Of a stretch of DNA of 64,000 nt, positions 51,160 through 64,000 are shown in pieces. How positions within the stretch are numbered: position 1 is the stretch's first letter; every line of letters begins with the position of its first letter. The notes under the pieces were generated by a model, which searched no databases, was not told the origin of the DNA, and saw only the letters and a list, made by a program, of their open reading frames with translations. Source of the stretch: Oscillospiraceae bacterium (GTDB lineage: Bacteria; Bacillota; Clostridia; Oscillospirales; Ruminococcaceae); contig JALEOL010000025.1 of NCBI GenBank assembly GCA_022766785.1, positions 16,831-80,830 of the forward strand, given 5' to 3'. A program made the position numbers and the translations under genes.

Positions 51160-52338
51160 ATGAACGAACTGGAACTCAAGTACGGCTGCAACCCCAATCA
51201 GAAGCCCTCGCGCATTTTCATGGCGAACGGCGCTGACCTGCCTATCGAGGTTCTGAACGGCAGACCGGGCTACATCAACTTTATGGACGCATTCAACGGC
51301 TGGCAGCTTGTAAAGGAACTAAAGGCTGCGACAGGCTGCCCTGCTGCGACCAGCTTCAAGCATGTTTCCCCGGCAGGCGCGGCTATCGGACTTCCGCTGA
51401 CTGAAACTCTTGCAAAGATCTACTGGGTGGACGACCTCGGAGAGCTTTCTCCCCTCGCCTGCGCTTACGCAAGGGCAAGAGGCGCTGACCGCATGAGCAG
51501 CTACGGCGACTTCATCGCGCTGTCTGACGTGTGCGACGTACCCACCGCAAAGATAATCCAGAGAGAGGTTTCCGACGGCGTTATCGCTCCCGGTTACGAA
51601 CCGGAGGCGCTGGAGATACTAAAGTCAAAGAGAAAAGGCACATACAACATCATAAAGATCGATCCGGATTACGTTCCCGAGCCGATAGAGCGCAAACAGG
51701 TGTACGGTATAACCTTTGAGCAGGGACGCAATGAGCTTGTGATAAACGACGAGCTGTTTGCAAACATTCCCACCGAAGCAAAGGATCTCCCCGATAGCGC
51801 AAAGCACGATCTTGCAATAGCTCTCATCACGCTGAAATACACACAGTCTAACTCAGTTGCTTACGCATGCGGCGGTCAGGCTATCGGTATCGGCGCTGGT
51901 CAGCAGTCCAGAATTCACTGCACTCGTCTTGCCGGAACAAAGGCAGACAACTGGTATCTGCGCCAGTCGCCAAAGGTAATGGAACTGCAGTTCGTTGATA
52001 ATATCCGCCGCGCAGACCGCGACAACACCATTGATCTGTACATTGGCGAAGATTACATGGACGTGCTTGCTGAGGGCGAATGGCAGAAGTTCTTCAAGGT
52101 GAAGCCCGAGGTATTCACCCGTGAAGAAAAGCGCGCATGGCTTGATACAATGAAGGGTGTATCCCTCGGCTCGGACGCGTTCTTCCCGTTCGGCGACAAT
52201 ATCGAGAGAGCGCACAGGAGCGGCGTTCAGTATATCGCGCAGCCCGGCGGTTCGATCCGCGACGACAATGTAATTGAAGTGTGCAACAAATACGGCATCA
52301 CAATGGCGTTCACAGGAATACGCCTGTTCCACCATTAA
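51160..52338 (+). CDS. Stand-alone AICAR transformylase (PurH C-terminal domain only)
   Basis: 392 aa; LKYGCNPNQKPS, SFKHVSPAGAA, VAYACGGQAIGIGAGQQSRIHCTRLAG, QPGGSIRDD. Confidence 0.92.
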   Translation: MNELELKYGCNPNQKPSRIFMANGADLPIEVLNGRPGYINFMDAFNGWQLVKELKAATGCPAATSFKHVSPAGAAIGLPLTETLAKIYWVDDLGELSPLACAYARARGADRMSSYGDFIALSDVCDVPTAKIIQREVSDGVIAPGYEPEALEILKSKRKGTYNIIKIDPDYVPEPIERKQVYGITFEQGRNELVINDELFANIPTEAKDLPDSAKHDLAIALITLKYTQSNSVAYACGGQAIGIGAGQQSRIHCTRLAGTKADNWYLRQSPKVMELQFVDNIRRADRDNTIDLYIGEDYMDVLAEGEWQKFFKVKPEVFTREEKRAWLDTMKGVSLGSDAFFPFGDNIERAHRSGVQYIAQPGGSIRDDNVIEVCNKYGITMAFTGIRLFHH

Positions 52339-52356
52339 TTTTTCCGGAGGTAAACC

Positions 52357-53898
52357 ATGTCCCACGAGTTAGTTCTCGTTCTCGACTTCGGCGGTCAGTA
52401 CAATCAGCTTATCGCGCGCCGGGTCAGAGAGCACAAAATATACTGCGAGGTTAAGTCCTACAAGACCCCAATTGAGGAGATCAAGGCGATGAACCCCAAG
52501 GGTATCATCTTCACCGGCGGTCCGAACAGCGTTTATCTTGATGATTCTCCCAGAATGGACAGGGAGATACTGGAGCTTGGTATTCCTGTACTGGGAATAT
52601 GCTATGGCGCTCAGTTCCTGGTGTACGCATTAGGCGGAGTGATCGAGCCTGCTCATGACGCTTCTCTTTCAGAGTACGGCAAAACAGAATGCGAGATAGA
52701 CACATCATCGCCTCTTTTCGACGGTCTGGAGAAAAACACGATCGTGTGGATGAGCCACAACGACTACATTTCGAAAGTACCCGATGGCTTCAAGTCGATA
52801 GGTCACAGCGTAAAATGTCCCTATGGCGCAATGGCTGATGAAGAAAGAAAACTGTATGGCGTTCAGTTCCACCCTGAGGTAAATCACACCGTTCAGGGCT
52901 TTGATATGCTGGGTAACTTCCTTACAAAAATATGCGGCTGCCGCGGTGACTGGACGATGGAAAGCTATGCAGAAACTGCGATCCGTGACATTCGTGCAAA
53001 AGTCGGCGATGGCAAGGCTCTGCTGGCTTTGTCGGGCGGTGTGGACAGTTCGGTTGCCTGCAAGCTGCTGGCAAAGGCTATCGGCAGCCAGCTCACCTGC
53101 ATTTTCGTTGACCACGGACTTATGAGAAAGAACGAGGGCGACGAGGTAGAAGCAGCATTCGCTGACAGCGGCGTAAACTTTGTCCGCGTCAACGCCGGAG
53201 AAAGGTTCCTCAGCAAGCTTGCCGGTGTTGAAGAACCCGAGCGAAAGCGCAAGATAATCGGCGAGGAATTTATCCGCGTATTTGAGGAAGAAGCCAAGAA
53301 GATCGGCAAGGTAGATTATCTTGTTCAGGGAACTATCTACCCTGATGTTATCGAGTCAGGACTAGGCGATGCTGCGGTGATAAAGAGCCACCACAATGTA
53401 GGCGGACTGCCAGATTATGTTGATTTCAAGGAAATAATCGAGCCGCTGCGCCTGCTGTTCAAGGACGAGGTTCGCGCGCTGGGAACCACCCTCGGTCTGG
53501 ACGAGAAGCTGGTTTGGCGGCAGCCGTTCCCCGGCCCCGGACTTGCTATCAGAATTATCGGCGACATTACCCCGGAGAAAGTCGCGACGCTTCAGGACGC
53601 AGACGCTATCTTCCGCGAGGAGATCGCAAACGCAGGTCTTGACCGCAGCATAAATCAATACTTCGCTGTGCTGACGAATATGCGCTCGGTCGGCGTCATG
53701 GGCGACGGCAGGACATACGATTACACACTGGCGCTGCGCGGCGTTTCCACAAGCGACTTCATGACCGCGGATTTCTCGCGTATACCCTACGACGTACTGG
53801 AGAAGGTTTCTGTACGGATCGTTAATGAAGTAAAGAATATCAATAGGATCGTTTATGATATTACGTCTAAGCCGCCGGCGACGATAGAGTGGGAATAA
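52357..53898 (+). CDS. guaA: GMP synthase (glutamine-hydrolysing)
   Basis: 513 aa; [36 protein letters not shown]-terminal KPPATIEWE. Confidence 0.97.
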
Positions 53899-54044
53899 TC
53901 GCCGCCCCCGAAATTTCCGCATAACAATGCGGTTTAACGGGCTTCAAACGGCTCTCTGATACCGTTTTGATACCGAAATATGAAAATGTGAAATAGTTGC
54001 AAGTGGCTTACAGATTGTAGCCAATTTGTAGCCACAATAAAAAC

Positions 54045-54080
54045 CAACCCCAAGAGTCTGTTTTCAGATGATTGGGGTTG
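54045..54080 (+). terminator. Intrinsic terminator
   Basis: CAACCCCAA-N18-TTGGGGTTG then TTTATCTTT. Confidence 0.8.
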
Positions 54081-54163
54081 TTTATCTTTCCAGTTGAAAT
54101 ATAAGTTCTTGTATGATATAATAAAAGCAAGATATCAGCCTTATTATGTCAGAGGTGAACAAT

Positions 54164-54826
54164 ATGAAAACAATACTTATTACAGATGACGATATGCACA
54201 TCGGAAACCTGCTTGAAGAAGCGCTTACAGGCGAGGGGTATTCGGTTCTGCGCGCCTATTCGGGAACGGAAGCGCAGCTTCTGCTCTCGAAATCAAAGCC
54301 CGATTTGATACTCCTCGACCTTATGCTGCCGGGGCTTTCGGGCGAGGAACTGCTCCCGCAGATTAAGGATATCCCTGTTATCGTGGTGAGCGCGAAAGCC
54401 GATACTTCCGATAAGGTGGGACTTCTGCTCGGCGGGGCTGCGGACTATGTTACAAAGCCGTTTGAGCTGCCCGAGCTTATCGCACGGGTTGCCGTTCAGC
54501 TTCGCAAGAGCGAAAGTAGCACAGCGGGAAACGCGCTTTGCTTTGAGGACATCACACTGTTCCCCGATACGCTTACAGCAAAGATTTCCGACACCGAAAT
54601 ACGGCTTACCCGAACCGAGTGCGCTATCCTCAAACTGCTTATGCAGAACCCGAAAAGTCCCGTCAGCCGTAGCTCAATCCTAGATAAAATCAGCCTCGAC
54701 ACACCCGACTGCACCGAGCGTTCGCTCAAACAGCACATCAGCAATATCCGCCGTAAATTGCAGGCGGTGAGTGGACGAGATTATATAGAGGCGGTTTACG
54801 GAATCGGCTTCAAGATGAAATCTTGA
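54164..54826 (+). CDS. OmpR/PhoB-family response regulator
   Basis: ILITDDDMHIGNLLEEAL, LILLDLMLPGLSGEEL, C-terminal winged helix. Confidence 0.93.
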   Translation: MKTILITDDDMHIGNLLEEALTGEGYSVLRAYSGTEAQLLLSKSKPDLILLDLMLPGLSGEELLPQIKDIPVIVVSAKADTSDKVGLLLGGAADYVTKPFELPELIARVAVQLRKSESSTAGNALCFEDITLFPDTLTAKISDTEIRLTRTECAILKLLMQNPKSPVSRSSILDKISLDTPDCTERSLKQHISNIRRKLQAVSGRDYIEAVYGIGFKMKS

Positions 54827-54868
54827 CGAAATCTTGACCTTTTCTTTGCCGCTTTCTTGACCGTCTTG
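54821..54868. promoter_or_regulatory. Phased TCTTGAC repeats upstream of ABC cassette (response-regulator box candidate)
   Basis: TCTTGAC at 54821 and 54832, TCTTTGC at 54843 (11-bp period), TCTTGAC at 54855. Confidence 0.6.
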
Positions 54869-54904
54869 TGGTATGATGTTTTCAGAAAGGATTGGTGATA
54901 ACCT

Positions 54905-55816
54905 ATGGAATACGTTCTGAAAACGGACGAACTGAAAAAGGAATACCGAGGCTTCAAGGCGTTAAACGGTGTTACAATGAACGTTCCCAAAGGCTCGATT
55001 TACGGCTTTGTGGGAAGAAACGGCTCGGGAAAAACCACGCTTATTCGCCTTATCTGCGGCTTGCAGTTTCCGACAGGCGGCGATTTTGAACTGTACGGGG
55101 TAAAGCACACCGACAGCACGATTTCAGCCGCACGCAGGCGAATGGGGGCGGTTGTGGAATCTCCCGCGATTTACACGGGGCTGTCTGCAAGGGCTAATCT
55201 GGAGCAGCAATTCCGCGTGTTGGGCTTGCCCTCGTTTGACGGAATTGACGAGATTTTAAAGCTTGTCGGCTTGTCCGATACCGGCAGAAAGAAAGCGGGA
55301 AACTTCTCTCTCGGAATGCGGCAGCGTTTGGGAATCGCGGTTGCTTTATGCGGAAATCCCGATTTCCTCGTGCTGGACGAGCCGATAAACGGACTTGACC
55401 CGCAGGGAATTGTCGAAACACGCGAGCTTATTCTCAAGCTCAACCGCGAACGGCAGATAACCGTGCTTATCTCCAGCCACATTCTGGACGAACTTTCAAA
55501 GCTTGCCACGCATTACGGCTTTATCGACCGCGGCACAATAGTCCGCGAAATGAGCGCCGAGGAACTGGAAGCCGCCTGCCGAAAGTGCGTGCGCGTTACC
55601 GTCAGCAATACCGAGAAGCTTGCAACCGTGCTTGATAAAATGGCTTTTGAATACAAGATAATCGACAGCGAAACCGCCGATGTTTTCGGAAAGCCCAATC
55701 TCACGAAACTGACAATGGCGCTGTCAGAACAGGGCTGCGAACTGCTCTCGGCGAAAGAACAGGACGAGAGCCTTGAGAGCTTTTATATCTCGCTTGTGGG
55801 AGGTGGACGCAAATGA
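54905..55816 (+). CDS. ABC transporter ATP-binding protein (bacitracin/lantibiotic-type)
   Basis: 303 aa; GRNGSGKTTLIRLI, FSLGMRQRLGIAVAL, LVLDEPINGLDPQG. Confidence 0.92.
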   Translation: MEYVLKTDELKKEYRGFKALNGVTMNVPKGSIYGFVGRNGSGKTTLIRLICGLQFPTGGDFELYGVKHTDSTISAARRRMGAVVESPAIYTGLSARANLEQQFRVLGLPSFDGIDEILKLVGLSDTGRKKAGNFSLGMRQRLGIAVALCGNPDFLVLDEPINGLDPQGIVETRELILKLNRERQITVLISSHILDELSKLATHYGFIDRGTIVREMSAEELEAACRKCVRVTVSNTEKLATVLDKMAFEYKIIDSETADVFGKPNLTKLTMALSEQGCELLSAKEQDESLESFYISLVGGGRK

Positions 55817-56691
55817 GCAAGCTGTTAAACGCGAATTTCTCGCGGCTTTTTAAGGGAAAATTTTTTTATATATGTGCTGCGGCGGCATTTGTTTTCGGCT
55901 TGATTGAAACAATCCTGAACAAAGGCACCATAAGAATGGGCGATTGGGTTGTTCACCCCGAGGGTGCGTTATTCAAGGGAAGTGGATTTTTCTTTATTGT
56001 CTTAACGGCAGTTCTGGTGGGAATTTTTGTGGGAGCAGAGCATGACGGCGCATTGCGAAACAAAATCATTGTAGGTCAAAAACGCTCTGCTATTCTTTTG
56101 GCATACTCCATAACCTGTTCTGCGGCAATTGCTATGATACATCTTTTGTTTATTGCGACTGTGCTTATATCGGGATTGATTCGTGGTGGAGAATTTCTGC
56201 TCTCGTTCGGTGAAATCGCGCTTTGCGAGCTTTTGCAGCTTTTATCCCTTATCGAATTGTGCGTCCTATATTCGGCAATATCTTTGCTTAATACGCATAA
56301 ATTCAGCGGCACGATAATTTCTCTGTTAATGGTATTCGCTTTTTTGGCAATCAGCTCAATTATATCTCCTCTCATCTCATCTCTGAAATACTCATACGAA
56401 AGCTACTTTGCCGATGCCCCGATATATCTCGTTGAAGATGAAAATATCACCACCGAAGATAAAATACAGACAGCGATTCTGGAAAGCATACAGGACATAA
56501 CTCCCTTCGGTCAGCAACACCAGATTCAGGAGAGCTTTTACAACGCATATTATTTGCAATACGAGGAGATGACATCTGACAACTATACAAAAGTTCCTAT
56601 CCCCGTGGAAATCGCACCCTTTGCACTCGGTGCAATCGCGGCTGCAACGGCTGTGGGAGTGCTGGTTTTCCGCAAAAAAGATGTAAAGTAG
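55813..56691 (+). CDS. ABC-2 type transporter permease
   Basis: 292 aa with six hydrophobic segments; ATGA overlap with ATPase gene. Confidence 0.85.
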   Translation: MSKLLNANFSRLFKGKFFYICAAAAFVFGLIETILNKGTIRMGDWVVHPEGALFKGSGFFFIVLTAVLVGIFVGAEHDGALRNKIIVGQKRSAILLAYSITCSAAIAMIHLLFIATVLISGLIRGGEFLLSFGEIALCELLQLLSLIELCVLYSAISLLNTHKFSGTIISLLMVFAFLAISSIISPLISSLKYSYESYFADAPIYLVEDENITTEDKIQTAILESIQDITPFGQQHQIQESFYNAYYLQYEEMTSDNYTKVPIPVEIAPFALGAIAAATAVGVLVFRKKDVK

Positions 56692-57594
56692 GTGATGACT
56701 TTGGAGAGTATCTGGATTATACCGACTATTGTTTTCGTGATAGCTGTGCTCGCGCTGCTGATTAAAATTATCCTGATGAAGAAAGCCGCCCGCGAAATCC
56801 GCGAAAAGCTTTCCGAAAAGCTGAATTCCGACACCAATACTCTCATAGACATCTCATCTTCCGATAAGGATATGCGCGCTCTCGCCGCCGATTTGAATAC
56901 GCAGCTTGTCATACTCCGCCGCAAACAGCTCCGTTTCACACAAGGCGACACGGAGCTTAAAAACGCAGTCACGAACATCTCTCACGACCTGCGCACGCCG
57001 CTTACCGCAATCTGCGGCTACCTCGATATTATCAAGAAAGAGGAAAAATCCGAAAAGCTGGCGGGCTATCTTGATATTATCGAGGACAGGGCGGCGCTTA
57101 TGAAGCAGCTCACCGAGGAGCTTTTCAGGTACTCCGTGATTATCTCCGAGAGCGAGGAATACCACACCGAGGAGGTCACCGTAAACAGCGTCCTTGAGGA
57201 CAGCGTTATGGGATATTACGCGGCTTTATGCGAAAGAGGCATAGAGCCGTCTGTCCGTATCACGGAAAAGCCGATTGTCCGCAAGCTAAACCGCGCGGAT
57301 TTGGCAAGAGTGTTCGCGAATCTTATCGGAAACGCGCTGAAATACAGTGACTGTGATTTGAGTATTTCCCTTGATGATGACGGTGTGATTTCGTTCTCAA
57401 ATACCGCTTCGTCGCTTGACGGAGTGGAAGTCGGCAGACTGTTCGAGCGGTTTTACACGTTGGAATCCGCGCGCAATTCAACGGGGCTGGGGCTTTCGAT
57501 TGCACGAACCCTTGTTGAGCGAATGGGTGGGACAATAGCGGCGGAATACTCTATGAATGTTCTATGTATAAAGATTGATTTCAAAAATGAATAA
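56692..57594 (+). CDS. Sensor histidine kinase
   Basis: 300 aa; AVTNISHDLRTPLTAICGYLDII, NLIGNALKYS, STGLGLSIARTLVERMGG. Confidence 0.93.
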   Translation: MMTLESIWIIPTIVFVIAVLALLIKIILMKKAAREIREKLSEKLNSDTNTLIDISSSDKDMRALAADLNTQLVILRRKQLRFTQGDTELKNAVTNISHDLRTPLTAICGYLDIIKKEEKSEKLAGYLDIIEDRAALMKQLTEELFRYSVIISESEEYHTEEVTVNSVLEDSVMGYYAALCERGIEPSVRITEKPIVRKLNRADLARVFANLIGNALKYSDCDLSISLDDDGVISFSNTASSLDGVEVGRLFERFYTLESARNSTGLGLSIARTLVERMGGTIAAEYSMNVLCIKIDFKNE

Positions 57595-57626
57595 ATCATT
57601 ACCCTTTGCCATCTTAGATATCTCGC

Positions 57627-58964
57627 TCAATGCTTCACCCCTCTCACCCTCTGCTTCAAAAACTCCTGCATCTTCTGCGTGAGGTTAAGCCCCTCAATAA
57701 ACTCCAACACCTTTTGGTACAATGCCTTCAGGCTACCAAGCCCGTTTTTGGTTTTTCGGAGTTCCTCTCGGAGCGGGTAAATCTCCTGCACCTTCTGCTC
57801 CAGAGCGGCGTTCCTCTTGGCAGCTTCCTCGTTTTCTTTTTTCAGCTTTGCAATCTCGGCGGTCAGCTCGCTCTCCCTATTCTCGGCGGCAATCTGCTTC
57901 TTGGAGAGTTCGGTCAGCATTCCGTAATCCTCTTTGGAGAGCGTAACCTTACCGCCGAACATTGTCTTGCCGGTTTCAATCTCGTCTATGAATTTGAGCT
58001 TCGTGACCTTTCGGGCGCTCGTTTCAAGCAAGGTCTGTTTATCTGCAAGTGCGGCGGTGGTCTGCGTTAGGGCAGAGGACTTTTCGGCTATCTCCTCGTC
58101 CAAATGAGCAACAGCAGCGTTCTTCTCTTGATACTGCTCGTCCAGCTCATCAATAACAGATTCGACCTGCGTTCGCAGCTCCTCGCGGTGCTTCAAGAGG
58201 CTACCTGCGTACTCGGCTTGTTCATCAAGCCGAGCGACTTCCTCTTTCTTCTCCTCAACCTGCTCCGTTATCTTGGCATATTCCTTGTACTGTTCCACGG
58301 TAAGACTACCACGGGATTTTTCGGGAGCGGCGATTTGTATGCCGTGCCGACTACAAATCTCGGTCAGAACCTTGCACTCGGCTTCACGCCAGCGGGCAAT
58401 GGTTTCTTTTCCGCTGCCGTAGCCCATCTCTTTGAGCGCCTGTGCTATGCCGTTTTGAGTGTCAACGCCCATTTTATAATGTCCAACAGGTATGTAGTCG
58501 ATATGAAGATGTGGAGTAGCCTCGTCCAAATGCAGAACAGCATTGAACACATAGAAATTTGGGTTGCGCTGTTGAAAGCCCTGCATATACTCGGTAAGGC
58601 AAGCTGTAGCGATTTCAGCGTCGTGAGTGCCAACGCCCGTGTTCTTCATATCACCAATCTGCACCACATCTTCATAGAAGCTCTTTCGCTTATCGGCGGC
58701 AGTCACCACGCTTTGAGAAATCTTCCGCTTGAAGATATGCTCATAGTAACTCGTGTTTATCTTCCTGCCGGCTCGCTTCTGCCTTGTGTTGTAACGCTCA
58801 ACAGCAGCGCCAAACAGGTGCTCGTATGCTTCTTCAATAGACTGTTGCACGAAAACGATGTTGTCTTTCGTTCGGGTATCGTCAACGTTCTTGGCGTTGA
58901 ACTTTCGGTTGTTGTGAGTAAGGCTTCCCTTGCCTTGACAATGGGAAATGCGTTTTTCGCTCAT
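57627..58964 (-). CDS. MobV-family relaxase (plasmid recombination/mobilization protein)
   Basis: 445 aa; VLHLDEATPHLHIDYIPV (HxDExxPHxH), C-terminal coiled coil. Confidence 0.92.
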   Translation of the reverse strand: MSEKRISHCQGKGSLTHNNRKFNAKNVDDTRTKDNIVFVQQSIEEAYEHLFGAAVERYNTRQKRAGRKINTSYYEHIFKRKISQSVVTAADKRKSFYEDVVQIGDMKNTGVGTHDAEIATACLTEYMQGFQQRNPNFYVFNAVLHLDEATPHLHIDYIPVGHYKMGVDTQNGIAQALKEMGYGSGKETIARWREAECKVLTEICSRHGIQIAAPEKSRGSLTVEQYKEYAKITEQVEEKKEEVARLDEQAEYAGSLLKHREELRTQVESVIDELDEQYQEKNAAVAHLDEEIAEKSSALTQTTAALADKQTLLETSARKVTKLKFIDEIETGKTMFGGKVTLSKEDYGMLTELSKKQIAAENRESELTAEIAKLKKENEEAAKRNAALEQKVQEIYPLREELRKTKNGLGSLKALYQKVLEFIEGLNLTQKMQEFLKQRVRGVKH

Positions 58965-58995
58965 AAGTATAATCTCCTTTCGTTGTGGTATTTTT

Positions 58996-59102
58996 ACTGT
59001 TGTGCCAACAGTAACGCCATAATACCCTTGACATTGATTTCGCAGGCTTCATCAACATCAAGGGTATGGCGCTCTCCGAGGGGCAAAGGGAGTTCCCTTT
59101 GC
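58996..59102. other. Candidate oriT: three tandem inverted repeats upstream of relaxase
   Basis: ACTGTTG-tgc-CAACAGT (58996-59012); ATACCCTTGACATTGAT/ATCAACATCAAGGGTAT (59022-59067); GCAAAGGGA-gt-TCCCTTTGC (59083-59102). Confidence 0.6.
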
Positions 59103-59397
59103 AATCCAAGTTTGGCTTTCTGCTCGCCCCGTTTTCACACACCGACATCGGTGCTTTTTTCAAAACTGAAAAAGAAAAGCGTGGCTGAAGCGACAAAGCG
59201 CTCGGATAGGGCAGAGCTGAAAAAGATATTGAAATCTTTGCTTGATTATGGTATAATATTTTTATTGACAAAAGTGTCTCGCGAGGTTCAACCCCTTCCG
59301 CGACCGCTTTTTAACTATCCGAAAGGGAATGTGCATTTTTAAGGTTGCGGAGCAGCATTACCGCAATCACGAAAAGTAAATTTGGGAGGAGAGAATT

Positions 59398-60549
59398 ATG
59401 TCACCCACAATATCAGCAGCCATTAACGCAGGAAAAAAGCTGATTTCTAGACCTATACCCGTTATCGCTGTTATTGCTGTAAGATATGCACTGAATTTAC
59501 TTGGAGGCATTGTACAGAGCAATATTATCGCTCCCGCGCATACCGAAAACAACATAGTTGTTGCCGCATTCGGTATTACATTATATCTGCTTGCGGAAAT
59601 TGTGCTGTTTGGGCTGGAGCTTTGTGCAGTTTTGGCTGCGGGAGCGGTGCTGCAGGATAAAAAAATCGGCGCAAATACATTCCGAAATGGATTTCGTCCG
59701 AAAGCTATGCTGACCGCGGCGGTAACGTCGCTGGTGATTGTCGTTGTGGCAATGGTGCCGGGATATTTCCTTTATCAGGGGGCTATGTATATTGCCCTTT
59801 TGCCCGATATGCCAAACCTGAATTTAAGTTACTGGCTGAGCTGTATTTTTAGTGCTGTATTAGTTGTGTTGGGTGTTCCTGCGGAGTATGCGGCGGTGAG
59901 GGGCAGTTTTATAGGAGAGGCTCTGGGCGCTGCCTTTTCCACTGCCAAGAGAGCCGGGCGCAGCTTTTGGGCGGTGCTGGTTGTCGCATTTGTAGGTTCG
60001 GTACTCAGCGCTTTGGGAGGGCTGTTGGCTTTTTTCGGAATATACGGAATTGCGGTAAGGATTATTTCTGCCGTGTTAAATATACTTGCTTCTGCGTATC
60101 TTATAATTTTCCTGACGGACTATGCGCAGAGGTTTTCAAAGCCCGCAGAAAACGCTGTCTGCGAAAAGGAAACAATCACGGAGCCTGACGACGATCCGCT
60201 TCCCGAGTGGTTCAGCGAGATAGAACAGCCTGTGGAGGGCTTGTTCGGCGATGTTACATACACCTGTGAAACAGAAAGCCCCTATGAGCTTGACCCAATG
60301 GAGCTTCTTACCAAGAACAATGCAAACCATTGCTTTACGGAAAGCTTCGCACTGCGACGTACTCTGAAAAAGTATTACACCGACTGCTGCGACAGCATAA
60401 CCACCTACGCCGACTATTCCCAACCCCGCACAGAAAGCCGTCGGGAATTAGTGAAAATAGACGGGAAGCAGGTCGTGGTAACATTCACCATCTCCACAAC
60501 TGACGGCAATCATTATGCGGTTACTGTGGCGTTAGAGGTGGCGGATTAG
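59398..60549 (+). CDS. Uncharacterised multi-pass membrane protein with soluble acidic C-terminus
   Basis: 383 aa; about six hydrophobic segments then DDDPLPEWFSEIEQP...; SD GGAGGAGAG. Confidence 0.75.
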   Translation: MSPTISAAINAGKKLISRPIPVIAVIAVRYALNLLGGIVQSNIIAPAHTENNIVVAAFGITLYLLAEIVLFGLELCAVLAAGAVLQDKKIGANTFRNGFRPKAMLTAAVTSLVIVVVAMVPGYFLYQGAMYIALLPDMPNLNLSYWLSCIFSAVLVVLGVPAEYAAVRGSFIGEALGAAFSTAKRAGRSFWAVLVVAFVGSVLSALGGLLAFFGIYGIAVRIISAVLNILASAYLIIFLTDYAQRFSKPAENAVCEKETITEPDDDPLPEWFSEIEQPVEGLFGDVTYTCETESPYELDPMELLTKNNANHCFTESFALRRTLKKYYTDCCDSITTYADYSQPRTESRRELVKIDGKQVVVTFTISTTDGNHYAVTVALEVAD

Positions 60550-60735
60550 TGCTAATTTCAGAAAGTGTAATCATTTTATCCGTTGAAAGCGCTGCATTTT
60601 GCGCAGAGATTCTTTTAAAGTACGAAAAAGAAAAACACCTTTCCATATACAGCAGTTTACATATTCACATCAAGTCGCACCCGACATCGAGTGCGGCTTT
60701 GCTTTCATCTAGCGACAACTCCTCCAACTCCAAAT

Positions 60736-60871
60736 CTGAAAAAAGAAAATGTGGCGATTTGGCTGAAAGGCGCTCGGATAGTGGCAGGGAGCTGCGGCGA
60801 GCAGTGACCCTGTTTTCTTTTTTCAGCTTTGCAATAAATTCGCCGTCCGCTAAAATCAAGGCAAAGCTGAA
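60736..60871. repeat. Perfect inverted repeats in intergenic region
   Basis: CTGAAAAAAGAAAA (60736-60749)/TTTTCTTTTTTCAG (60813-60826); TTCAGCTTTGC (60822-60832)/GCAAAGCTGAA (60861-60871). Confidence 0.75.
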
Positions 60872-60904
60872 TAGAATTATAAGGAAAATTGAGCCGCTTT
60901 TGCT

Positions 60905-61060
60905 GTACAGGCGTACATTCCGCATAACCAAGCGCTTTGACAGGCTTTCCGCTGATGTACGGCAGTGTACCGGTCTTGTACTCTGTACGCCGTTGTACAC
61001 CCTTTGTACACGCTGATATTGCTAATATTTCGCATTGTAAAGCCAACTGTACACCCGTAC
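60905..61060. repeat. Iteron-like array of ten GTAC sites
   Basis: GTAC starts at 60905, 60913, 60957, 60967, 60978, 60985, 60995, 61006, 61049, 61057. Confidence 0.8.
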
Positions 61061-61067
61061 ACCGAAT

Positions 61068-62465
61068 TTACCTATTAAGGGAAATTCCCTCAAACCCTCG
61101 GACACGCTTACCGTTTTCGTAGATGTTGTTGGAGTATCTGACGCTGTATTTGTCGGCGTTGGATTTCAGCCAATTTATAAAAGTTTCCCGTTTCAGGGCG
61201 GTCAAGCCGTTGTCCTCGCACCACTCGGAATACACTCGGTGAAGCGTGGTGGAGCTGATTGCGGAACTCTCACAAAAGACAGCCGCTTCCGCAAGGAAAT
61301 CCACGATATTGCAGTTTTCCGCAACTGCTTCGGCTACATTCTCCTTTGTTTTCTCGCTTACCGTAAACCGATAATTGTTCTTGATAAGCCGCCGCAGACC
61401 GTCCAACATCCAACAGAATATATTTTCTTTTTCAGCTATGAATTTATCTGCAAGAAACGGGTCGTCCTTTCGGTTAACGGGTTTGGGTTTTGTTGAGAGA
61501 ATAAGCAAGCGCCGAGCAAAGCCGTCCGACTTGTCGTACAAGGCTTTAGGTGAGCCGTTGCCGAAGCATAGGAAGCGGCTATAAACCTGTGCCTGTTGGG
61601 ATTGCTTGCCCTTTGCTTCAACATCAATCGGTATCTCTGCGGTGATGATGTTCTTGATGTAACCCGTGGATTTGAGGGCGGTCATCTGCATATCGTCATC
61701 ATTCATCAGCAGCTTGTTGATGAGGTTGTAGCGAAAAAACTTGTCGTCCTCCACACGCTGAAAGTTGCCCGACAGCATAGCCGAGCCGAATATCGCATTC
61801 ATAGCAACGCCGATACGGCTCTTACCCTCGCCGCCGTTGCCGATTATGAACAGGGCAGTCTGCGCCCTCGTGGACGGTATAAGGCAGTAGCCGAGATACT
61901 CTTGCAGCGTTAATATATCTTCCAAATCAAGCAGTTGTAAAAGGAATGTCTGAAAGTGTTCGGGATAGTACCTATGCTCCCAGATTTCGGGGGCATAGTT
62001 GATGTTGAGCCGATTTACGCAGAATTTCTTTTCGGGTATGAAAGTTGGTGGCTTGCCGTAATCTCCGTCCACCTTTACAACGCCGTTCAGGACGTGGATT
62101 TCGCTCTCGTTCGGCTTAATCGGAGCGCTGTGACAATAGAGCTTCAGCGCTTCAAGCAACGATTTTGACCGCTTTGCAATCCCTGTTGTAATGCCGTTCT
62201 CAATGAGCATTTCGGAGATTTCAGCGGCGATTTTGTCTTGGCTCTCCGCCCCGTCAACCGAGTAGAATATGCCGTCAATGCACTTTAGCTCACGGCTTTG
62301 ACAGAAGCTCTTGCAGAAAAGCGGCTCGTTTATCTTCTTTTCGTCCGATAACCACTTGATTTCGGGCGGCGGTTGTGATATAATAACGTTGTTAAGACTT
62401 TGAGAGGACTGTCCCTCATCTGCGCCAACAGATGAAATAGGGGCGGTCTTTTCGTTTTTGTCCAT
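61068..62465 (-). CDS. D5/SF3-type helicase (P4-like primase family) of mobile element
   Basis: 465 aa; FIIGNGGEGKSRIGVAM Walker A, LLMNDDDMQM, RFLCFGNGSPKALYDKSDGFARRLLILS. Confidence 0.85.
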   Translation of the reverse strand: MDKNEKTAPISSVGADEGQSSQSLNNVIISQPPPEIKWLSDEKKINEPLFCKSFCQSRELKCIDGIFYSVDGAESQDKIAAEISEMLIENGITTGIAKRSKSLLEALKLYCHSAPIKPNESEIHVLNGVVKVDGDYGKPPTFIPEKKFCVNRLNINYAPEIWEHRYYPEHFQTFLLQLLDLEDILTLQEYLGYCLIPSTRAQTALFIIGNGGEGKSRIGVAMNAIFGSAMLSGNFQRVEDDKFFRYNLINKLLMNDDDMQMTALKSTGYIKNIITAEIPIDVEAKGKQSQQAQVYSRFLCFGNGSPKALYDKSDGFARRLLILSTKPKPVNRKDDPFLADKFIAEKENIFCWMLDGLRRLIKNNYRFTVSEKTKENVAEAVAENCNIVDFLAEAAVFCESSAISSTTLHRVYSEWCEDNGLTALKRETFINWLKSNADKYSVRYSNNIYENGKRVRGFEGISLNR

Positions 62466-62788
62466 TATCCCTCACCGCCTTTTATCCCGTTAAGCGTAAC
62501 GGTGATAAGGTTAATTGTATCAAGCAAGTCGCTGTTTGTTGCGGCTTCCTCGCTCTTTTTCAGCTCTGCAAGCACCAATTCCAGCCTGTCTTTCAGAGCC
62601 TTGTAAACTCTCGGATTTGGCTGTACCACAATATCCCTTTGCAGTACCCTTGATATGATATAGTCCTGTTTCGTAAGACCCGAAAGCTGTACCGCCACAT
62701 CAAGCGCGGCGTTCTCTTCCTCGGAACAGCGGAACGATACGATTTTCCCACGAAAGCGACCTTTCGTGTCAAGCACTTTAGCCGACAT
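62465..62788 (-). CDS. Small RHH/MobC-like mobilization accessory protein
   Basis: 107 aa; KIVSFRCSEEENAALDVAVQLSGLTKQDYIISRVL. Confidence 0.7.
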   Translation of the reverse strand: MSAKVLDTKGRFRGKIVSFRCSEEENAALDVAVQLSGLTKQDYIISRVLQRDIVVQPNPRVYKALKDRLELVLAELKKSEEAATNSDLLDTINLITVTLNGIKGGEG

Positions 62789-63869
62789 TTTCCTCGCTCT
62801 CCTTTCTGATATTGTTCAGCTTGTCTGCCATTTCCGTCTGCGTTGACGGAAACATATGAGCGTAGCGGTAGGTTATGTCTATGCTCTCGTGTCCTACTCG
62901 CTCCGCAATAGCAACCGCCGAGAAGCCCATTTCAATCAGCAAGCTGATTGCGCTGTGGCGAATATCGTGTATTCTGATACGCTTCACCCCTGCCTCCTTG
63001 CAGCCACGTTCCATTTCGTGCTTCAAAAAGTGCTTGGTTACGGGAAACAACCTGTCGGTAGGCTTGCAATCATACAGCGATGAAACAAGGTCACGCATTT
63101 CATCACACAGGAAATCGGGCATTTTTATTGTGCGGTTGCTTTTCACGGTTTTGGGCGATGTGATAACGTCCTTCCCTTTCAGCCGCTGATACGACTTGTT
63201 AATTGTAAGGGTACTGTTCTCAAAATCGAAATCAGCAGACGTCAGAGCAAGCAGTTCACCCTCACGAATGCCGCACCAATACAGCAGTTCAAAGGCATAG
63301 AATGCAAGAGGTTTGTCCATTATCGCCTCGGAGAATTTCTTATACTCTTCCTGCGTCCAGAACTGCATTTCTTTCTTTTCAGATGTGCTTACATTACCTG
63401 CTTTTGACGCAGGGTTGCTTGGCAGGTCGTAAAAGCGTACAGCGTGGTTGAAAATTGCGCTAATCTGATTGTGTATGGTGTGAAGATACTGCACCGAAAT
63501 TGGCTTCCCATTCTCTCCGATAGAGTTTCGCAGCTCGTTCTGCCACTTGATTACGTCTTTTGCAGCAATATCCGATATAACACGATTTCCGAAATACGGG
63601 AGAATGTGTTTTGTGATGATTGCTTCTTTTGTAAGCCAGGTATTCAGCTTCAGACGGGGCTTTATGTCCTGCTTATAGAGCTGAAAGAAATCGCTGAAGG
63701 TCATCTCCATTTTCCCCTGCTCCTGATTATGGAACTTGCGTTCATACTCGGCAGCTTCGTGTTTTGTGGCAAAGCCACGCTTCAGCTTTTTCTTCTTACT
63801 GCCGTCCCACGCCGTAAACCACAGCGAAACATACCACGTTCCGTTTTTGTTATCCTTGTAAACAGGCAT
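62778..63869 (-). CDS. Tyrosine recombinase / integrase
   Basis: 363 aa; AP2-like N-terminus, YWCGIREGELLAL, IRIHDIRHSAISLLIEMGFS, VGHESIDITYRYAHM. Confidence 0.95.
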   Translation of the reverse strand: MPVYKDNKNGTWYVSLWFTAWDGSKKKKLKRGFATKHEAAEYERKFHNQEQGKMEMTFSDFFQLYKQDIKPRLKLNTWLTKEAIITKHILPYFGNRVISDIAAKDVIKWQNELRNSIGENGKPISVQYLHTIHNQISAIFNHAVRFYDLPSNPASKAGNVSTSEKKEMQFWTQEEYKKFSEAIMDKPLAFYAFELLYWCGIREGELLALTSADFDFENSTLTINKSYQRLKGKDVITSPKTVKSNRTIKMPDFLCDEMRDLVSSLYDCKPTDRLFPVTKHFLKHEMERGCKEAGVKRIRIHDIRHSAISLLIEMGFSAVAIAERVGHESIDITYRYAHMFPSTQTEMADKLNNIRKESEENVG

Positions 63870-64000
63870 TATGTACCCTCCTTTGCAAGTCCGTAGAACT
63901 TCTCCTCAAAATACTTGCGGCTTACCTTGCCGGCTATTGTGATGAAACCCTTGTTCTTGAGTTCCTCGTTCAGCTCACGGACAACCTTGTAGGCGAAAGC
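63869..64000 (-). CDS. Small excisionase/DNA-binding-like protein, partial (5' end outside window)
   Basis: Reading in from the edge: AFAYKVVRELNEELKNKGFITIAGKVSRKYFEEKFYGLAKEGT*; TAATG overlap with integrase start. Confidence 0.65.
   Translation of the reverse strand, partial: AFAYKVVRELNEELKNKGFITIAGKVSRKYFEEKFYGLAKEGT

Follow-up and report, generated by a model that had tools for sequence, protein, structure and literature searches.

In SaPI origins, two sets of repeats flank an AT-rich stretch. These repeats are oppositely oriented and load two hexamers (PMC9894130), and the C-terminal domains of both SaPI Rep and the SCCmec helicase Cch2 bind iterons lying directly downstream of their own genes (PMC7581432); in the putative SCCmec origin, Cch2 recognises AAGTG iterons within a 23-bp repeat region. 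Short sites set for two opposed hexamers are also found in the origins served by the SF3 helicases SV40 large T antigen and papillomavirus E1, whose origin-binding domain is N-terminal. How excised mobilizable elements escape loss is poorly known. In 2017, a review stated that replication of excised integrative and mobilizable elements (IMEs) had never been studied (PMC5704250), and replication of SGI1 was studied thereafter (PMC7433901, PMC7826253). This IME replicates after excision, and its initiator is listed as Rep_3-type in the review (PMC5704250).

The locus compared here with these systems lies in a stretch of 64,000 nucleotides, hereafter the window, and consists of ten GTAC sites starting 7 bp past the stop codon of an SF3 helicase gene. 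From its layout, its conservation and its linkage to the helicase, the array is very probably the double-stranded replication origin of an apparent IME, at which the helicase would load itself as two opposed hexamers. The array and the genes around it are as follows.

60905..61060, no strand assigned: ten-iteron GTAC array, predicted oriV of the element (from spacing, conservation and shuffles)
61068..62465, minus strand: SF3 helicase of 465 aa, predicted self-loading origin-binding initiator (TIGR01613, P4-family primase C-terminal; DUF5906; Pox_D5)
62465..62788, minus strand: NikA-like ribbon-helix-helix (RHH) protein (PF21983), probable relaxosome accessory factor
62778..63869, minus strand: tyrosine integrase
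57627..58964, minus strand: Mob_Pre/MobV-type relaxase

The ten GTAC tetramers start at positions 60905, 60913, 60957, 60967, 60978, 60985, 60995, 61006, 61049 and 61057 of the 64-kb window, corresponding to start-to-start gaps of 8, 44, 10, 11, 7, 10, 11, 43 and 8 within 60905-61060. Recounting thus reproduced exactly the number of sites and the spacings given in an earlier, sequence-only reading of this DNA, and its placement of the array directly 3' of the SF3 helicase gene is correct as well. Both outer pairs read CTGTACA-N2-CGTACA (at 60903 and 61047). Over the whole window, GTAC is mildly enriched (184 occurrences versus 132 expected); the second-densest 156-bp stretch holds four sites, and the maximum per 156 bp in 200 Markov-shuffled windows was five, compared with ten in the array. 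When ten sites were placed at random within the span, mirror-like spacing, defined as a deviation of at most 4 (3 in the real array), arose in 116 of 908,368 draws, i.e., about 1 in 8,000, whereas 1.6% of reshuffled orders of the observed gaps were equally mirror-like. Judged from the window sequence alone, the mirror symmetry is therefore suggestive. Moreover, GTAC is its own reverse complement, so that the orientation of the sites is unreadable from the window itself. It is the arrays of related elements that settle the case for symmetry.

The spacing pattern, which the sequence-only reading had proposed to look for in related elements, is kept at helicase identities between 76 and 95%. It is exactly retained in L002 (helicase 95% identical), while L034 (84%) has all ten sites with two gaps one base off, and L036/L004 (82%) and L035/L003 (76%) have nine sites with similar outer pairs and gaps. 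In the alignment with L034, 40 of 40 GTAC bases are kept, whereas the remaining array positions agree at 79 of 116 and the positions beyond the array at 48 of 160, and with L004 the corresponding values are 35 of 40 GTAC bases versus 69 of 116 other array bases. As the GTAC sites are kept above the other array bases in both cases, the sites and their distances are under selection. Besides, inverted repeats lie beyond the array (60731-60749 with 60813-60831, 95%; 60822-60832 with 60861-60871, 100%), and these repeats of the region 60731-60871 are also present in the closest relatives.

Next to helicases of 53-65% identity, arrays occupy the same place and are built from different words, most of them non-palindromic. 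Both L006 (GGCGTAT; gaps 8, 31, 13, 19, 11, 19, 13, 31, 8) and L007 (GCGTGTA; gaps 8, 31, 13, 19, 10, 19, 13, 31, 8) are exact mirrors composed of five forward and then five reverse sites. For L005 (CGTGCA), gaps of 8, 33, 12, 11, 5, 11, 12, 32 and 8 were taken from the match list after removing overlapping second matches by hand, and the degenerate GGTGTCT sites on the R. albus plasmid pRUMAL02 (L124) can be read as 8, 31, 12, 20, 12, 20, 12, 31 and 8 when three weak matches are left out. The plans of L005, L006 and L007 are reproduced by the held-out loci L125, L126 and L127, respectively. Accordingly, the shared plan is 2 + 3 / 3 + 2, that is, an outer pair with sites 8 bp apart throughout the plan-sharing arrays, a step of 31 or 43 bp, a triplet and a short centre, followed by the same parts mirrored. 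In relatives whose words are non-palindromic, and in L035, the five sites on the left are seen to face the five on the right. Hence, the mirror layout claimed from the spacing in the window corresponds to a true inverted orientation in these relatives, which makes the claim stronger than what is visible in the window. Transferred to the window, the array is divided into the following parts.

60985..61060, minus strand: helicase-proximal half-array, made up of outer pair 61049/61057 plus triplet 60985/60995/61006; read in the sense of the helicase, this is the forward half, orientation as expected from L006, L007 and L035
60905..60981, plus strand: distal half-array, made up of triplet 60957/60967/60978 plus outer pair 60905/60913; read in the sense of the helicase, this is the reverse half, orientation as expected from the relatives
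61010..61048, no strand assigned: helicase-proximal spacer of 39 bp, 64% AT, with a conserved TTGGCTTTACAATGCG box
60917..60956, no strand assigned: distal spacer of 40 bp with a conserved TTCCGCATAACCAAGCGCTTT box at 60918-60938, also found just 3' of guaA

Remoter helicases are accompanied by other plans, with two sets about 100 bp apart in some loci (L018 and L063, the latter with a long AT-rich middle between the sets) and compact arrangements in others; among the relatives inspected, L068 and L038 have no clear array. In L059, L090, L066, L027 and similar loci of this remoter group, GTACGTACGTAC blocks are present, in some loci with one block within the end of the helicase coding sequence, where it encodes TYVP, and one after it.

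The AlphaFold2 model of the helicase (mean pLDDT 87.5) has the African swine fever virus PrimPol and the SaPI5 primase-helicase as top Foldseek matches, the latter with an E-value of 5e-17 and TM-scores of 0.64-0.66 and 0.67-0.69 (fuller chains). By two-way TM-score, SaPI5 is the better match, and a sequence search of the PDB gave the SaPI5 primase-helicase (7ola) as sole match (E-value 2.5e-7). In the model, the C-terminal domain comprises helices at residues 386-394, 405-418 and 426-435 and wing strands at 443-450 and 453-463, and reads as a winged helix, a fold named by inspection of the model.

61071..61310, minus strand: helicase residues 386-465, putative C-terminal winged-helix domain (from predicted structure and co-variation)

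A primase domain was not recognised in the helicase. In many relatives, a CHC2 zinc-finger (DnaG-type) protein adjoins the helicase, while none was seen beside the window helicase; hence, priming would presumably be performed by the host or by an unrecognised factor. The CHC2 genes overlapping or adjoining the helicase gene are located at L106:9862-10455, L107:2945-3523, L111:7563-8150, L112:7102-7698 and L124:8358-8972, and together with the helicase gene they perhaps represent a split primase-helicase. In the window element, the NikA-like gene sits where relatives carry the CHC2 gene.

An IME is marked by an integrase and a relaxase in combination with a lack of genes for a conjugation pore; integrase, MobV relaxase and NikA-like genes are present in the element, which is seen up to the contig end. 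As the window stops there, the right end of the element and its excised form are unseen. Phage satellites (PICIs) are marked by genes such as those for a small terminase, capsid interference and an stl-like repressor; the genes of the relaxase and of the NikA-like protein speak for an IME rather than a PICI. Scanning IMG/VR with the helicase gave no relatives, and phage records returned four unannotated faecal contigs at 39-45% identity plus weaker matches.

The distal spacer contains a 21-bp box, TTCCGCATAACNAAGCGNTTT (60918-60938), which recurs as a near copy at 53915-53935 just 3' of guaA (expected 0.03), the two places agreeing at 25 of 30 bases when a longer segment is compared, and similar boxes lie near the att cores of L031 and L033. 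In view of these boxes, the array could be taken for arm-type sites of the integrase or of an excisionase, or for a joint control region of integration and replication. We regard this as very unlikely, since the att ends lack the GTAC array, L033 has an unchanged array although its neighbouring integrase shares just 50% identity and occupies another position, and arm sites would account for the spacers at most. The shared spacer/att box itself might link replication with excision. Comparing direct and inverted copies of the spacer boxes, the direct arrangement fits better in several loci, not in all.

The 3' end of guaA looks like the integration site of related elements. The guaA gene (52357-53898) precedes related elements in L032, L033, L034 and L035, and a core, GAGTGGGAAT, is repeated in L033 (3821 and 11222) and in L105. 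The att ends were sought within loci only, and no direct repeat was found between the contig-end tail (63861-64000) and 52001-57700, guaA end included. Compared with the guaA-inserted relatives, the window element (57627-64000) is ordered oppositely, its integrase lying distally where the contig ends, which may equally reflect an inversion, a tandem insertion or an assembly collapse. Between guaA and mobV (54146-57594), genes for a response regulator, an ABC transporter pair and a histidine kinase are located, possibly cargo of this element or of a second one.

Upstream of the helicase gene and in the same direction lie the genes of the NikA-like RHH protein and the tyrosine integrase, with the MobV relaxase gene on the other side of the helicase. 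RHH proteins often bind short repeats at near helical-repeat spacing, and with the RHH gene being directly upstream of the helicase gene, the array could be a centromere-like (parS) or operator site for this protein, serving partition or transcription control. Such a role is highly improbable, as the protein belongs to the NikA-like mobilization family, not to a partition family, a ParA-like gene is absent from the recognised genes of the element, and distant elements with other neighbours keep their arrays. In particular, the complete GTAC array is present in L033, where no homologue of the RHH protein could be detected and the integrase is placed elsewhere. L106 and pRUMAL02 pair such arrays with serine recombinases, a relaxase of the MOBP type and a CHC2 zinc-finger protein, whereas L111 carries a Mob_Pre relaxase and a tyrosine integrase beside its array. 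The array thus tracks the helicase while the other genes vary, which argues against the RHH protein, the relaxase or the integrase as main ligand. Of the sequence-only proposal of an origin or partition site, the origin is consequently well supported by the conserved spacing and the linkage to the helicase, whereas a centromere bound by the RHH protein is not supported in view of the L033 array and of the arrays accompanied by other relaxases and recombinases.

That the array is an oriT, i.e., the place where MobV relaxase and NikA-like protein assemble a relaxosome, has likewise very little probability. While oriTs carry repeats and the array of several relatives is flanked by the helicase gene and mobV, the same plan also recurs in company of MOBP relaxases (L106, L124), each time directly after the helicase gene, and a ten-site mirror layout is not a known feature of oriTs. 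From the position in a 3' intergenic region and the mild enrichment of GTAC, one might suspect a cluster due to chance or composition, or else a terminator of transcription or an mRNA element behind the helicase gene. Such a reading is extremely improbable and appears largely refuted by conservation, as the densest shuffled cluster has five sites, the GTAC bases are conserved above their neighbours, and relatives build the same layout from other words, which composition cannot explain.

With the array as origin, the helicase would bind the ten GTAC-centred iterons via its predicted C-terminal winged helix after excision of the element. Each half, i.e., outer pair plus inner triplet of about 75 bp, might nucleate one hexamer. 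The inversion of the halves would set both hexamers against each other, so that they load head to head and then melt the DNA. Replication would proceed both ways from the array and might keep the excised circle from being lost.

In this proposed mode of action, the locus resembles the SaPI (PICI) Rep/Pri-Rep systems, especially SaPI5 (PDB 7ola, 7om0), with an SF3-type helicase that belongs to the primase C-terminal group, short repeats of opposite orientation directly downstream of the helicase gene, and both self-loading and a C-terminal DNA-binding domain, which are predicted here. In contrast, it belongs to an apparent IME with a MobV relaxase and not, as far as seen, to a phage satellite, its helicase has no recognised primase domain, and the halves abut (7-11 bp; 7 bp start to start in the window) with the outer pairs 31 or 43 bp off. 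The array is 51% AT overall, and a SaPI-like AT-rich unwinding stretch between the halves was not found; the missing AT-rich region sets the array apart from a plain SaPI/SCCmec-type origin. With SCCmec Cch2 it shares a Primase_Cterm helicase and the position of repeats just downstream of the gene, bound by the C-terminal domain and direct in the case of Cch2 (PMC7581432), but the 23-bp repeat region is replaced by a dyad of ten sites that extends over 156 bp. Similarity to the SV40 large T antigen and papillomavirus E1 origins is confined to the SF3 helicase and the setting of sites for two opposed hexamers, with the origin-binding domain at the other end of the protein and with host and element unrelated. 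SGI1, an IME, differs by its Rep_3-type initiator. A Rep_3-type iteron-plasmid origin does not describe the locus either, as the initiator is an SF3 helicase and no DnaA box, allowing one mismatch, is found near the array. Since iterons placed immediately behind the helicase gene are already in use by the helicases of SaPI and SCCmec (PMC7581432, PMC9894130), a new origin as a category, as put forward in the sequence-only reading, is too strong; the ten-site dyad frame is a distinct compact layout within the SaPI/SCCmec-like origin logic, in an apparent IME.

For relating the iteron word to the protein, alignment columns from 45 helicases of less than 85% identity were ranked by mutual information with GTAC-array status. 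Residues 459, 446, 443 and 449, all located in the wing, are within the top six columns of the protein, and N446 is present in 21 of 22 GTAC-class helicases versus 6 of 23 others. In the window wing, S445-N446-N447 and E459 co-vary with the iteron word, and within the window clade every switch to another word is accompanied by different residues at 445-447 (SNN with GTAC, DxN with CGTGTA, VYH or SYH with CGTGCA, STN with CGTAT, TNN with GGTGTCT). On the core-domain tree, GTAC status changes at least eight times, and the tree-corrected test of N446 gave about three independent pairs for, none against and two ties, which is not significant (p 0.25). Agreement with the residue prediction was found in the held-out loci L125, L126, L127-L129 and L133, several of them close to training loci, whereas L132 has STN with TATACACC/TACACACC instead of CGTAT. 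Due to the tree-corrected p-value and the deviating L132, an exact residue code for iterons is not claimed. Nevertheless, the co-variation of iteron word and wing residues is suggestive, and the wing of the putative winged helix likely reads the iteron. We consider it possible, if somewhat doubtful, that origin and initiator form a modular lock-and-key, in which the ten-site mirror frame (2 + 3 / 3 + 2) is fixed and the word switches at all sites together with few wing residues (xNN with GTAC, DxN with CGTGTA, xYH with CGTGCA, and in most cases STN with CGTAT). Related elements would thereby become mutually compatible replicons. In this lock-and-key, the spacer box common to origin and att ends would in addition couple replication to excision.

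For a large group of elements of gut Clostridia, the array provides a concrete and conserved predicted origin. In addition, the naturally matched pairs of helicase and iteron may serve as a test bed for self-loading of opposed hexamers in bacteria and for the rules of winged-helix recognition.
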